Assembly (NCBI GenBank): GCA_024278215.1
Contig: JAJRTR010000114.1
Span: 1 to 8,202 of the forward strand
Origin: a bacterium
GTDB lineage: Bacteria; UBP15; UBA6099; JAJRTR01
Reading direction: 5' to 3'
DNA length: 8,202 bases
Position numbers and translations under genes: made by a program. Positions 622-7,483 of this stretch are shown one piece after another (position 1 is the first letter of the stretch; each line of letters begins with the position of its first letter). The notes under the pieces are model-generated. The model was not told where the DNA came from, searched no databases, and worked only from the letters and a program-made list of their open reading frames with translations.

Positions 622-653
622 CGGGGTAGTCCCCGTTAGCGAGTGCAAAGGAG
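622..653 (+). promoter_or_regulatory. GC hairpin just before the flagellin ribosome binding site
   Basis: CGGGG (622-626), TAGT, CCCCG (631-635) forms a tight 5-bp, 4-base-loop hairpin that ends 12 bases before the Shine-Dalgarno sequence AAGGAG (648-653). The ribosome binding site lies 8 bases before the ATG at 662 and decides that start over the upstream in-frame GTG at 503. The hairpin could protect the mRNA 5' end or tune translation, as leaders of abundant filament proteins often do; this is inference. Confidence 0.4.
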
Positions 654-661
654 ATGTCAGT

Positions 662-2215
662 ATGAAAATCAACACTAACATCAGCGCAATGATGGCAAGG
701 AATGTTCAGCGACTTCATTCCAAAAGCCTTTCGTCTTCTGTTGAAAGGTTGTCTAACGGACTGAAATTGAATCGCGGCGCGGACAACCCTTCGGGACTCG
801 GCACATCAGAAGTCGTGAAAGCCCAGGTGAAGGGCACGAACACAGCGATTCATAACGTGGAGGAATCCATCTATCTATATTCGCTCCGGGATGATTATTT
901 CCAAGAACTCGAGGAGATGCTCAACAGGATGCGCGACCTGGCTGTGAGGGCATCGAACGAAGCCACTCTCACAACGAGAGACCTTGGGAAGATGGACGAA
1001 GAAGTGCAGGCGATGAAACGTGAAGTCAACAGGAAGGCACTGGCATCTTATCAGGTAGATGGCGGCAGACTGCTGTTCAACCCGACAGACCTTGATGTAA
1101 TATGGGTGCTCGACGACACCGCCAGCATGGGCCCCTACGCAAACTCGCTTAAGAATGATGCCCCGTCGATGTTCAGTCAACTGGCGAAAGCCGGTTTCGA
1201 CTTGAGAATGGGGGTCGTAGGTTTCGACAGTATACTGAGAAATTACGGCTCCACGTCATTTCAGAAAAGCGCAACCGATTTCACTACCGACGTGGATGCT
1301 ATATTGACGGCAATCGGAGCCCCGTTAAGCGGCGTGGAGAACGGAATCGACGCGGTAAACTCCGCACTTGCGCTCGGTACGCTGGGTGGAGATTTCAGGG
1401 CGAACGCTGAAAAGATGGTGATCCTTCTGACCGACGAGGACTCGGACGATTTTGAATATACGAGATGGAGCCCCGCCGAGTGGTGGGCGCCCCCGGCGGA
1501 CCCCGGACTGTCCAGCGCGCCGAATGCGGCCGCGGCGGACGCGATACGCAACGCCTGTATTGCCAATCTCGTGGCGGCCGACGCAACTCTGCATGTCGCC
1601 GGGGTTGTAAAGGACTCCTCGGGCACTCTCCAGAATACACCGGACGACGACTACCAGGTCATTGCAAGTGACCCGACCATCAACGGCGGCGTGTACACTC
1701 TCGACACCGGCGGCGCGTGGGTGACAAGCATTACCAGCGCGATGCTCGCTCAGGGCGACGACTGGACTGTTGATTTCCAGGTCGGACCCGACTCCAATCA
1801 TTCCCTCACTGAAACTTTCAAATCCGTTACAACGGAATCCCTCGGCATAGACAGCGTCAATCTTGCCGCCGTCTCCTCCGCAATGAACTCTATTGACGTC
1901 GTAGATCGCGCAAAAGAGAATCTTTCGAACATGCGCCTGCGGACAGCCAATATCGTTTCCCGCCTTCAGCATATCGCCAACGACCTCGCTCATCAGAACA
2001 TAAACAACTCCGACTTCAGTTCACGTCTTAAAGATGCCGATATGGAAGAGGAAATCGTTCAATTCACAAAAACACAGCTTCTTTCCGACACCGCGACGTC
2101 CGCACAGGCACATGCCGACAGCAACATAGAATCGGCAATGCAGCTTATAGATGTCGTAAAATCAGCCAGGCACATCGCTCGATTCAATGACGCTTTTTAT
2201 AATCGAAACATGTGA
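662..2215 (+). CDS. Flagellin with a von Willebrand factor A domain in place of the variable region
   Basis: This encodes a 517-residue flagellin-type filament protein. Residues 1-140 are a typical flagellin N-terminal region: an MKINTNISAM start, ERLSNGLKLN at 28-37, ADNPSGLG at 40-47 and NRMRDLAVRASN at 88-99. Residues about 366-490 are the C-terminal core, with FQVG at 372-375, a helical stretch RTANIVSRLQHIANDL and the hallmark RLKDADMEEEIVQFTK at 455-470. Between them, about 145-360, lies a VWA fold: a strand VIWVL, then DDTASM at 151-156 (D151, T153, S155 as the MIDAS DxTxS), GVVGFDS at 184-190, a candidate third MIDAS residue near S223, and VILLTDED at 253-260 with D258. A Pro/Ala-rich loop sits at 270-295, and about 25 residues extend past the usual C-terminus. 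The ATG at 662 is chosen for its AAGGAG site and flagellin start. Family knowledge: termini pack into the filament core and the middle faces outward, and MIDAS VWA domains bind ligands through a metal ion. A role as a displayed adhesin or sensor is inference. No flagellar genes or chaperone lie nearby, so it may be a secondary flagellin. Confidence 0.93.
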   Translation: MKINTNISAMMARNVQRLHSKSLSSSVERLSNGLKLNRGADNPSGLGTSEVVKAQVKGTNTAIHNVEESIYLYSLRDDYFQELEEMLNRMRDLAVRASNEATLTTRDLGKMDEEVQAMKREVNRKALASYQVDGGRLLFNPTDLDVIWVLDDTASMGPYANSLKNDAPSMFSQLAKAGFDLRMGVVGFDSILRNYGSTSFQKSATDFTTDVDAILTAIGAPLSGVENGIDAVNSALALGTLGGDFRANAEKMVILLTDEDSDDFEYTRWSPAEWWAPPADPGLSSAPNAAAADAIRNACIANLVAADATLHVAGVVKDSSGTLQNTPDDDYQVIASDPTINGGVYTLDTGGAWVTSITSAMLAQGDDWTVDFQVGPDSNHSLTETFKSVTTESLGIDSVNLAAVSSAMNSIDVVDRAKENLSNMRLRTANIVSRLQHIANDLAHQNINNSDFSSRLKDADMEEEIVQFTKTQLLSDTATSAQAHADSNIESAMQLIDVVKSARHIARFNDAFYNRNM

Positions 2216-2315: not shown

Positions 2316-2343
2316 TCTGTAATGTCTTAAGGTGACGTGGAAA

Positions 2344-3303
2344 ATGAAAACAGCAGGCCCGATGAAAACAATCCCTCAGGTTTGTATTAGCGTTTTGCTA
2401 TTCCTTTTTGTAGCTGTTCCGGCGGCGCACTGCCGGCCCATCGAGTCTTTCCTTTACATCAATAACGATACTCTCAACATCGGGGACCCCCTGTTTGTAA
2501 ACATCGAAGTCGAGAATCGCACATCGGCTGATGTCCGGCTGCCTCTTAACTTTTTCACTATGAATGAAAAGGGACGAACCGGCCTTTTTTTCTCTCTTTC
2601 AGACCCCGCCGGTATCGAGCTTGCGAACAGTTGTTCTCCGGAATCGCCCCCCGACAGCGACATGCCGCTTGTCCTCGCACCAGGCGAGTTCCATGGCCGC
2701 AAGAACATAAAACTCTCGGAATGCTTCAATATGAAACCCGCCGGTGTCTACTCACTTACTGCGATATTCACTTCTGCGGACACAGACGATCAAGTGTGGG
2801 CGGGTACCCTTAAGTCGCAAACGCTTGCAATCACTGTGAAAGAAAGCGAAGTGCGAATAAAACAAAAACAGGCCGCGAAACTCGTCAACCAGTGGATTGA
2901 AAACTATAAACTGTCCACAGCGATGGCATACAGGAGCAATATAGCATCGCTGGGCACACCCGCCGTCCCCGCAATAATCAAAGCACTCGACAAGAGCGAC
3001 AATTACTCTATGGCCAGTGACCTCCTGGCTCTGCTTGGCGAACTCCCATGCCGCGAAGCGGGTGACGCGCTGATAGAATTCATGCGCTCGGCAGACGACA
3101 GAAAATTCAAATCAAATGTTCCCGGCGGATTCTCAGCCTCCGGAATGCTGTCGGGCGCTGCCATTCGATCTATGGAAAAACTCGCCGGCTATAACCTTAT
3201 GCGCGAGAAAAAAATGTTCGTCGGCACAGATGTCGCCGTCCTGTGGAGCAACTGGTGGAAAAATAATCGACCGGCATATCCCAGGGCTGTCCCCGAAGAT
3301 TGA
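2344..3303 (+). CDS. Exported protein with N-terminal beta-sandwich and C-terminal HEAT-like repeats
   Basis: I do not recognise a named family. The 319-residue protein starts with a signal peptide (residues 1-30: positive MKTAGPMK, a hydrophobic stretch ISVLLFLFVAV, then PAAHC). The Cys at 30 lacks a proper lipobox because His precedes it, so ordinary signal peptidase I export is likelier than a lipoprotein. Residues about 35-168 look like an Ig-like or BsuPI-type beta-sandwich (NDTLNIGDPLFVNIEVENRT; SLSDPAG; LVLAPGE; GVYSLTAIF). Residues about 172-300 are helical, with one clear HEAT-like pair (LGTPAVPAIIKAL; LLALLGEL), and the chain ends in WSNWWKNNR, a Trp-rich tail I associate with exported HEAT-repeat proteins of PVC-type bacteria. 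ATG 2344 is preferred over GTG 2332 because AAGGTG at 2329-2334 is well placed for it; ATG 2362 is a further option. It faces the Rrf2 gene tail to tail, 29 bp away. The role is unknown; extracytoplasmic protein binding is a guess. Confidence 0.85.
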   Translation: MKTAGPMKTIPQVCISVLLFLFVAVPAAHCRPIESFLYINNDTLNIGDPLFVNIEVENRTSADVRLPLNFFTMNEKGRTGLFFSLSDPAGIELANSCSPESPPDSDMPLVLAPGEFHGRKNIKLSECFNMKPAGVYSLTAIFTSADTDDQVWAGTLKSQTLAITVKESEVRIKQKQAAKLVNQWIENYKLSTAMAYRSNIASLGTPAVPAIIKALDKSDNYSMASDLLALLGELPCREAGDALIEFMRSADDRKFKSNVPGGFSASGMLSGAAIRSMEKLAGYNLMREKKMFVGTDVAVLWSNWWKNNRPAYPRAVPED

Positions 3304-6970: not shown

Positions 6971-7104
6971 GAGCCAATTGCAAAATCATGTTCGTAGCGA
7001 GGTCGAGCGAAATTGTTCAGAGCAAGGCGGAGGTATAAAATCCTCGCAGGCGTACTTGTAGAGTACGTCGAGTACGATTTTACACCGACAACGCAGCTAT
7101 TGAC
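6971..7104 (+). repeat. MITE-like palindromic interspersed repeat, copy 2 (right end lost)
   Basis: The left terminal repeat GAGCCAATTGCAAAAT is at 6971-6986. From 7008 to 7104 it matches bases 1-97 with 6 mismatches; then homology stops sharply where copy 1 continues for 44 more bases to its right terminal repeat. The palindromic core is at about 7028-7090, with the inner stem CGTACT (7051-7056)/AGTACG (7062-7067), ATAAAATCCTCG on the left arm and CGAGTACGATTTTACA on the right. The right end was lost by whatever event joined it to the recombinase fragment. Confidence 0.8.
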
Positions 7105-7135
7105 TTTATGTAAAGCAAAGAGTTGTGTAAAGTCA
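7101..7135. repeat. Short inverted repeat at the junction of repeat and recombinase fragment
   Basis: TGACTTTA (7101-7108) and TAAAGTCA (7128-7135) are perfect 8-bp inverted copies around 19 bases, at the very edge of repeat copy 2. The position fits an element end or a recombinase core site of the inserted element, but this is speculation from position alone. Confidence 0.4.
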
Positions 7136-7180
7136 TTGTGCATTCCTCCTTTCTACACTACATGTTGTGGTCACCCACTT

Positions 7181-7378
7181 GATTCCCGGATGCCCCTTCT
7201 TTTTCTTCGCTTCTGTCGTGATGTAGATAACATTCCTCCGGAAAAGTTGACTATTGAAGATGTGGAATATGAAACATTCACGAGATTCCTTGAATACTTG
7301 AAAACAGATCGCGGGTGCGGGACACGAACAGTGAACAACAGGCTGGCTGCTTTTCATTCGTTTTTTCGTTACGTCCAG
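7181..7378 (+). pseudogene. Fragment of a tyrosine recombinase/integrase (N-terminal core-binding domain)
   Basis: Read from 7181, about 66 codons translate as a SAM-like core-binding domain of transposon-type tyrosine recombinases: LLFLRFCRDVDNIPPEKLTI, then a middle part with FTRFLEYLKTDRG, and TVNNRLAAFHSFFRYVQ at the end. This is the pattern of the XerC-like integrases found in groups on mobile elements. The start of the domain (about 20-30 residues) is missing or scrambled, there is no ribosome binding site, and similarity stops at Gln (7376-7378). The catalytic domain with its Arg/His/Tyr residues is absent. The frame remains open into flanking DNA at both ends, but those parts are non-homologous. 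It is a dead remnant of a mobile element. Confidence 0.8.
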
Positions 7379-7381
7379 AAG

Positions 7382-7483
7382 TTGCGTTGCGGACCGCAAT
7401 GTTATTTCAGCGGCTGCCGCGCATACCAGGAATATCATAGCGAATAATAGAAAAGAAAAAATAAATTTCTTTTTTCCGGACAT
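7382..7483 (-). pseudogene. 5' stump of a membrane-anchored gene cut by the recombinase fragment
   Basis: Codons 1-34 from ATG 7483 encode a Lys-rich start (MSGKKKF), one hydrophobic segment (residues about 7-24) and AAAAEITLRS. A single membrane anchor followed by an E..LR motif is common at the start of exported SGNH/GDSL-type hydrolases, so such an enzyme is possible but not proven. The gene starts 7 bp after the stop of the upstream Ig-like gene and was likely co-transcribed with it. At about 7379-7384 it meets the recombinase fragment head to head. The frame runs on to 7133 only as antisense of that fragment, and no continuation of the original gene is visible up to the repeat. Confidence 0.55.

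Follow-up and report, generated by a model that had tools for sequence, protein, structure and literature searches.

A flagellin with an integrin-like VWA domain in its middle and a putative metal-dependent binding site

Introduction

The flagellin gene at 662–2215 of the window, the whole 8,202-nucleotide stretch of DNA analysed here, which comes from a little-studied bacterial lineage, raises the question of why a flagellum subunit should carry a VWA domain. In ordinary flagellins the middle of the protein is the hypervariable part, and some flagellins are known to have functional enzymes as domains. VWA domains are used by many cells for gripping, and non-adhesive roles are also known for them. 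An earlier note on this DNA had drawn attention to the combination; here its claims are examined against domain profiles, predicted structures, related genomes and the literature.

Results

Domain order of the protein

The gene is a single open frame of 517 amino acids on the plus strand, running from the ATG at 662 to a stop codon at 2213–2215 (Table 1). The earlier note placed both flagellin termini in one frame and this was confirmed, the Pfam matches to Flagellin_N (residues 3–124, E 8.9e-17, 61.9 bits against a cut-off of 26.6) and Flagellin_C (residues 411–495, E 1.4e-7, 32.2 bits against a cut-off of 23) both lying above their cut-offs. These scores are about half or less of those of plain flagellins. 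A VWA domain had been proposed for the middle from the motifs DDTAS (residues 151–155) and VILLTDED (residues 253–260), and both the PF00092 match (residues 145–270, E 1.7e-5, 25.6 bits against a cut-off of 23.8) and the predicted fold agree with this. Matches to Fez1 and other weak Pfam matches in the protein were below cut-off and fell on helices. The nearest sequences of solved structure were flagellins, which matched at the two ends only.

Comparison with plain flagellins of the same genome delimits the insert. The N-terminal part ends with '..VDGGRLLF' where the plain flagellins have '..FNTKVMFSG', and the protein restarts with 'FQVGPDSNHSL' where they have 'LQIGADNGALL', the FQVGPDSNHSLTETF hairpin aligning with their LQIGADNG. 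By this alignment the VWA insert sits at the standard insertion place of flagellins, and homology likewise supports the description of the VWA domain as an outer one, which would be placed outside the filament. At the other end of the protein, the C-terminal tails in the window's own clade align as ...FNDAFYNRNM, ...FNDIFTIT and ...FSGIFTVQQTL; the tail ends near an F(N/S)(D/G)xF motif common to this clade and absent from normal flagellins. A search by eye upstream of this gene and five other flagellin genes found no convincing shared sigma-28-like promoter.

Table 1. Features of the VWA flagellin gene and other module-bearing flagellins of the same genome
Feature	Position in window	Strand	Description	Basis
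Ribosome-binding site AAAGGAG	647..653	+	8 nt 5' of ATG	Read from sequence
VWA flagellin gene	662..2215	+	517 aa + stop	
Flagellin_N (PF00669), residues 3-124	668..1033	+	D0 + D1 N-terminal helices	Pfam; D1 part backed by model
VWA domain, residues ~143-363	1088..1750	+	Replaces D2/D3	PF00092 match, AlphaFold model, fold matches
MIDAS motif 1, D151-D-T153-A-S155	1112..1126	+	DxT/SxS	11-sequence alignment
E226	1337..1339	+	Invariant, near MIDAS motif 2; putative role	Alignment
MIDAS motif 3, T257-D258 of TDED	1430..1435	+	(T/S)D in 11/11 sequences	Alignment
D1 beta-hairpin FQVGPDSNHSLTETF, residues 368-386	1763..1819	+	Flagellin core restarts	Model strands 368-373, 381-386
Flagellin_C (PF00700), residues 411-495	1892..2146	+		Pfam
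C-terminal tail	2150..2212	+	~20 residues past usual flagellin end	Alignment with closest relatives
Other module-bearing flagellins			Contigs C90, C187, C115, C22, C142 (L019, L027, L023, L021, L024)	

Predicted structure

A full-length AlphaFold model was built on a five-sequence alignment (mean pLDDT 63.7, pTM 0.44). It showed the alternation of strands and helices of a VWA-type fold at residues 143–363, between the flagellin D1 helices, with pLDDT mostly 65–88 in this region and weaker loops at 190–194, 240–242 and 265–286. The D0 ends were of low confidence (pLDDT <50 for 1–49 and 480–517), the D0 sequence motifs being present. When the model was compared with the PDB using VIA-align, flagellar filaments matched with Z of 17–19 (best 18.8) over residues 42–487 minus the insert, the D1 rod aligning to filament subunits over ~190–217 residues with an rmsd of 2.3–3.0. 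Residues ~139–367 of the same model matched integrin beta I domains with Z 17.4 and VWA subunits of TFIIH within Z 16–17. Modelled alone, the VWA domain gave a pTM of 0.74 and matched integrin and TFIIH VWA domains with Z 16–17 over 173–204 residues; integrin alpha I, the vWFA domain of LapA and the pilus adhesin SpaC were further fold matches. The monomer prediction called for by the earlier note thus found the expected fold, with integrin-like matches, and the protein is predicted to be a flagellin D1 rod bearing an integrin-like VWA domain.

Also among the top fold matches was the cell-surface flagellin of Sphingomonas sp. A1 (3k8v), which has the flagellin fold, a role other than that of bulk filament and no VWA domain. 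This bears on the possibility that the window's protein, like those Sphingomonas homologues, sits at the cell surface or is associated with the hook or tip and does not polymerise along the filament. The C-terminus of normal flagellins lines the filament channel, where a tail of ~20 residues would be unusual, and the ends that form D0 are degenerate or lost in related proteins. However, the match to 3k8v is common to all flagellins, and the protein keeps the ERLSNGLKLN and ADNPSGL of assembling flagellins at its N-terminus and SRLKDADM at its C-terminus. Such a location is considered unlikely.

The metal site

Eleven VWA flagellin sequences from two phyla, 28–52% identical, were aligned to examine the MIDAS motif claimed in the earlier note. 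D151 and S155 were invariant, position 153 was T or S and positions 257–258 were (T/S)D in every one of the sequences, so that motifs 1 and 3 of the claim stand. Motif 2 does not stand in its usual form. The second MIDAS motif usually has a Thr; this residue was not conserved, the nearby E226 being invariant in 11/11 instead. Only 9 of 100,000 random sets of four columns from the VWA region equalled columns 151, 153, 155 and 258 in conservation. Since motifs 1 and 3 are kept and the Thr of motif 2 is not, binding of a divalent metal by the VWA domain appears likely though not assured.

The VWA part was at least as similar to the window's protein as the termini were in eight of ten relatives (58 versus 47% and 43 versus 33% identity, for example). 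Recalling that the middle is usually the hypervariable part of a flagellin, the natural reading of this conservation would be selection on the domain's own function.

Distribution of VWA flagellins

Contig C170 of the window's genome encodes another VWA flagellin (527 aa, with DRTGS and TDEDSDD), and a profile of the family matched all seven genomes examined from the phylum, which include the public MAGs USCA_metabat.19_sub, DeMMO6_30 and RA.bin91. VWA flagellins themselves were present in five of the seven: G002 has four, the window's genome and G006 have two each, and G001 and G005 have one each. Another small phylum supplied one more (G035, 480–489 aa, VWA E 6.7e-12). Some relatives missed the PF00092 cut-off, though they are homologues from end to end, and two keep the MIDAS without flagellin termini recognisable to Pfam. 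In RA.bin91 a VWA flagellin stops just past MIDAS motif 3 (L031:236-1183, L067:3113-4060), for which frameshift, truncation and assembly error are candidate explanations.

These genomes also bear on whether the gene is an assembly chimera, a pseudogene or a chance similarity. The window comprises an entire contig of 8.2 kb that begins at a dispersed repeat, and the relative in G005 is broken by an in-frame stop in its VWA region. Against this, the window's gene has an open frame, a good ribosome-binding site and conserved metal-site residues, and the same architecture recurs on C170 and in several genomes that were assembled separately. The objection of a chimera, which the earlier note had raised against itself, therefore fails, and an artefact of this kind is rejected as highly improbable. 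The dispersed repeat (~97 nt) is found at 1–97 and 7008–7104 of the window, its two copies 94% identical, and in at least 40 copies at 97–100% identity in the genome; since it is often at contig ends, it probably breaks the assembly. Next to one of the copies, at 7013–7447, lies part of a tyrosine recombinase (Phage_int_SAM_4, 27.2 bits).

In a survey of 386 genomes of many families, full-length matches were found only in the window's phylum and the one other small phylum. Two more samples (388 and 395 genomes), which held no positive control, gave no match. The survey supports the rarity of VWA flagellins, and sampling of this kind does not establish absence elsewhere. Six VWA matches were obtained among viral contigs, five in records with no flagellin and one in a phage-size record with a flagellin in a separate gene ~70 kb away, and plasmids gave matches to ordinary flagellins only, none covering 80% of the query. 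Matches on contigs of Myxococcota, Archaeoglobus, Planctomycetota and others were rejected, the VWA match being shorter than 200 residues with no co-located flagellin match reported; the genomes behind matches of this type had no flagellin or had flagellins as separate genes.

A tree of the flagellin termini gave strong support (99) to the window's own clade. The VWA flagellins of the phylum grouped together with weak support (43) and the member from the second phylum was placed outside, again with weak support. The VWA insertion may have had a single origin or several.

A paralogue lacking D0 and the metal motif

Each of the seven genomes examined from the phylum encodes a paralogue of ~435–446 aa (contig C34 in the window's genome, L025:6149-7468; orthologues L106-L111). 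Its homology to the VWA flagellins spans 341 columns (99.9% probability in hhalign), and it has neither a recognisable D0 nor an intact DxSxS, the motif reading DRNRW, SRAKS, SRSAS or DRREN. The one member searched with Pfam gave no flagellin match. The scaffold of the VWA flagellins appears from these sequences to have diversified in this lineage. As two relatives keep the MIDAS without flagellin ends and the paralogue lacks D0 and has a broken motif, polymerisation and metal binding do not seem to be strictly tied to each other.

Flagellins of the window's genome

About 15 flagellin genes were found in the window's genome, ~7 of which have extra central modules. Besides the VWA domain these modules comprise a domain resembling the sugar-binding type of GH2/rhamnosidase enzymes (below the Pfam cut-off) and PD40 beta-propeller repeats (a fragment at a contig end); three further flagellins have inserts that Pfam did not name, and the insert flagellins reach 911 and 880 aa. 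Four plain flagellins lie in tandem with 84–93% identity, and the genome also has genes for the hook and rings and for FlgK, FlgL and FliD. The VWA flagellin genes are solitary, scattered and outside the flagellar operons. The tandem plain flagellins are likely the bulk subunit. Given these four near-identical genes, the VWA flagellin is probably a minor subunit mixed with plain flagellins, and a filament built of it, as pictured in the earlier note, is only one option.

Two neighbouring genes were also noted. A gene at L016:16509-17849 and L064:1969-3561, 61% identical between the two, lies beside the VWA flagellin loci of two genera and has no Pfam match. Downstream in the window, the gene at 2332–3303 has a start resembling a signal peptide and a sub-threshold match to HEAT_PBS, and belongs to no known family.

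The arrangement of the flagellin genes bears on a role in the architecture of the filament, where VWA domains would bind each other or neighbouring subunits to give stiffening, a sheath-like outer layer or bundling, the MIDAS then acting as a glue within or between filaments rather than as a receptor for something external. According to PMC10256154, the outer domains of several flagellins assemble into ordered networks on which motility in viscous media depends, and the same genome's insert flagellins, 911 and 880 aa long, imply that bulky outer layers are tolerated. However, the VWA flagellin genes occur singly at scattered loci and have diverged termini, whereas the plain flagellins in tandem resemble a bulk subunit; a continuous network could not be made by a minor subunit. 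A role of this kind is judged improbable.

Discussion

Relation to known systems

The earlier note suggested that VWA flagellins were new to the literature. That suggestion is wrong, since vWFA is already listed in Table 1 of Eckhard et al. 2017 (PMC5595980), as the eighth most frequent domain of the hypervariable region, occurring in 21 of 26,587 flagellins. Compared by table entry, those proteins have the same stated architecture, with vWFA occupying the hypervariable region between flagellin N and flagellin C. They were counted only, the main text of that paper containing no analysis of their sequences, taxonomy or function. Searches of the open literature found no study of a VWA flagellin. 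The architecture is therefore filed as already known though uncharacterised, and the window's protein adds to it.

Flagellinolysins, the metallopeptidase flagellins, resemble the VWA flagellin in having a functional domain in the hypervariable region, displayed on the filament, and in accompanying plain flagellins as a diverged second or minor type. They differ in that the VWA flagellin has no HExxH and no peptidase domain. A protease flagellin was rejected on these grounds and because the match to the flagellinolysin profile NF033876, far below its cut-off (29.2 versus 205 bits), is confined to profile positions 322–381, the C-terminal part of flagellin.

The closest tested analogue is PilB of S. 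sanguinis, a type IV pilin whose VWA domain binds Mg or Mn and requires its MIDAS for adhesion (PMC8179133). Both are filament subunits onto which a MIDAS-bearing VWA domain has been grafted, and lectin and other modules are found on sister pilins. In contrast, PilB belongs to a type IV pilus, its VWA domain is joined via a pilin loop and modelled at the tip, and its secretion and assembly are unrelated (PMC8179133). The large VWA adhesins LapA, with its vWFA domain, and SpaC also expose a VWA fold with a metal site at the cell surface, but are not flagellins and differ in anchoring and export.

Proposed function

We lean slightly towards the view that the protein is a specialised flagellin which displays a metal-dependent binding site for an external ligand on the filament. 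Through its N- and C-terminal helices it would become part of the flagellar filament, or of the filament surface, with the VWA domain facing outward at the D2/D3 place of other flagellins. The domain would hold a divalent metal at the MIDAS and thereby bind an acidic group of an outside ligand; candidates are a polymer, a neighbouring filament and a protein that is bound to mineral or lies on a cell surface. The flagellum would then double as a multivalent binding organelle. We infer that the VWA flagellin is exported and assembled and that it binds metal and ligand. Display of this kind is supported by the FlgK, FlgL, hook, ring and FliD genes of the genome and by the related paralogue family, in which loss of D0 goes with loss of the metal motif. 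That it assembles into a filament cannot be taken for granted, because the Flagellin_N and Flagellin_C scores are low and two relatives with the MIDAS have no recognisable flagellin termini.

The display reading can be extended, more tentatively and with the balance leaning against it, to a modular flagellum. Sister flagellins bearing different extracellular modules would be mixed with a plain core to make a programmable binding surface, combining metal-dependent VWA domains, the sugar-binding-like domain, beta-propeller repeats and the large unassigned inserts, and the universal paralogue with its missing D0 and broken MIDAS would be a non-polymerising partner or regulator. A flagellum of this type would be the counterpart of the modular type IV pilins.

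New here are a phylum-wide family of VWA flagellins with a conserved metal motif, a natural paralogue without D0 and with a broken motif in 7/7 genomes examined from the phylum, and a genome in which ~7 of 15 or so flagellins bear extra modules. The isolated domain with its conserved metal motif, the motif-broken close paralogues and the several module-bearing sister flagellins provide material for tests. If the binding function is true, flagella as well as type IV pili would be decorated by bacteria with grafted adhesive modules, and the finding would bear on the link between motility and attachment in uncultured subsurface bacteria.
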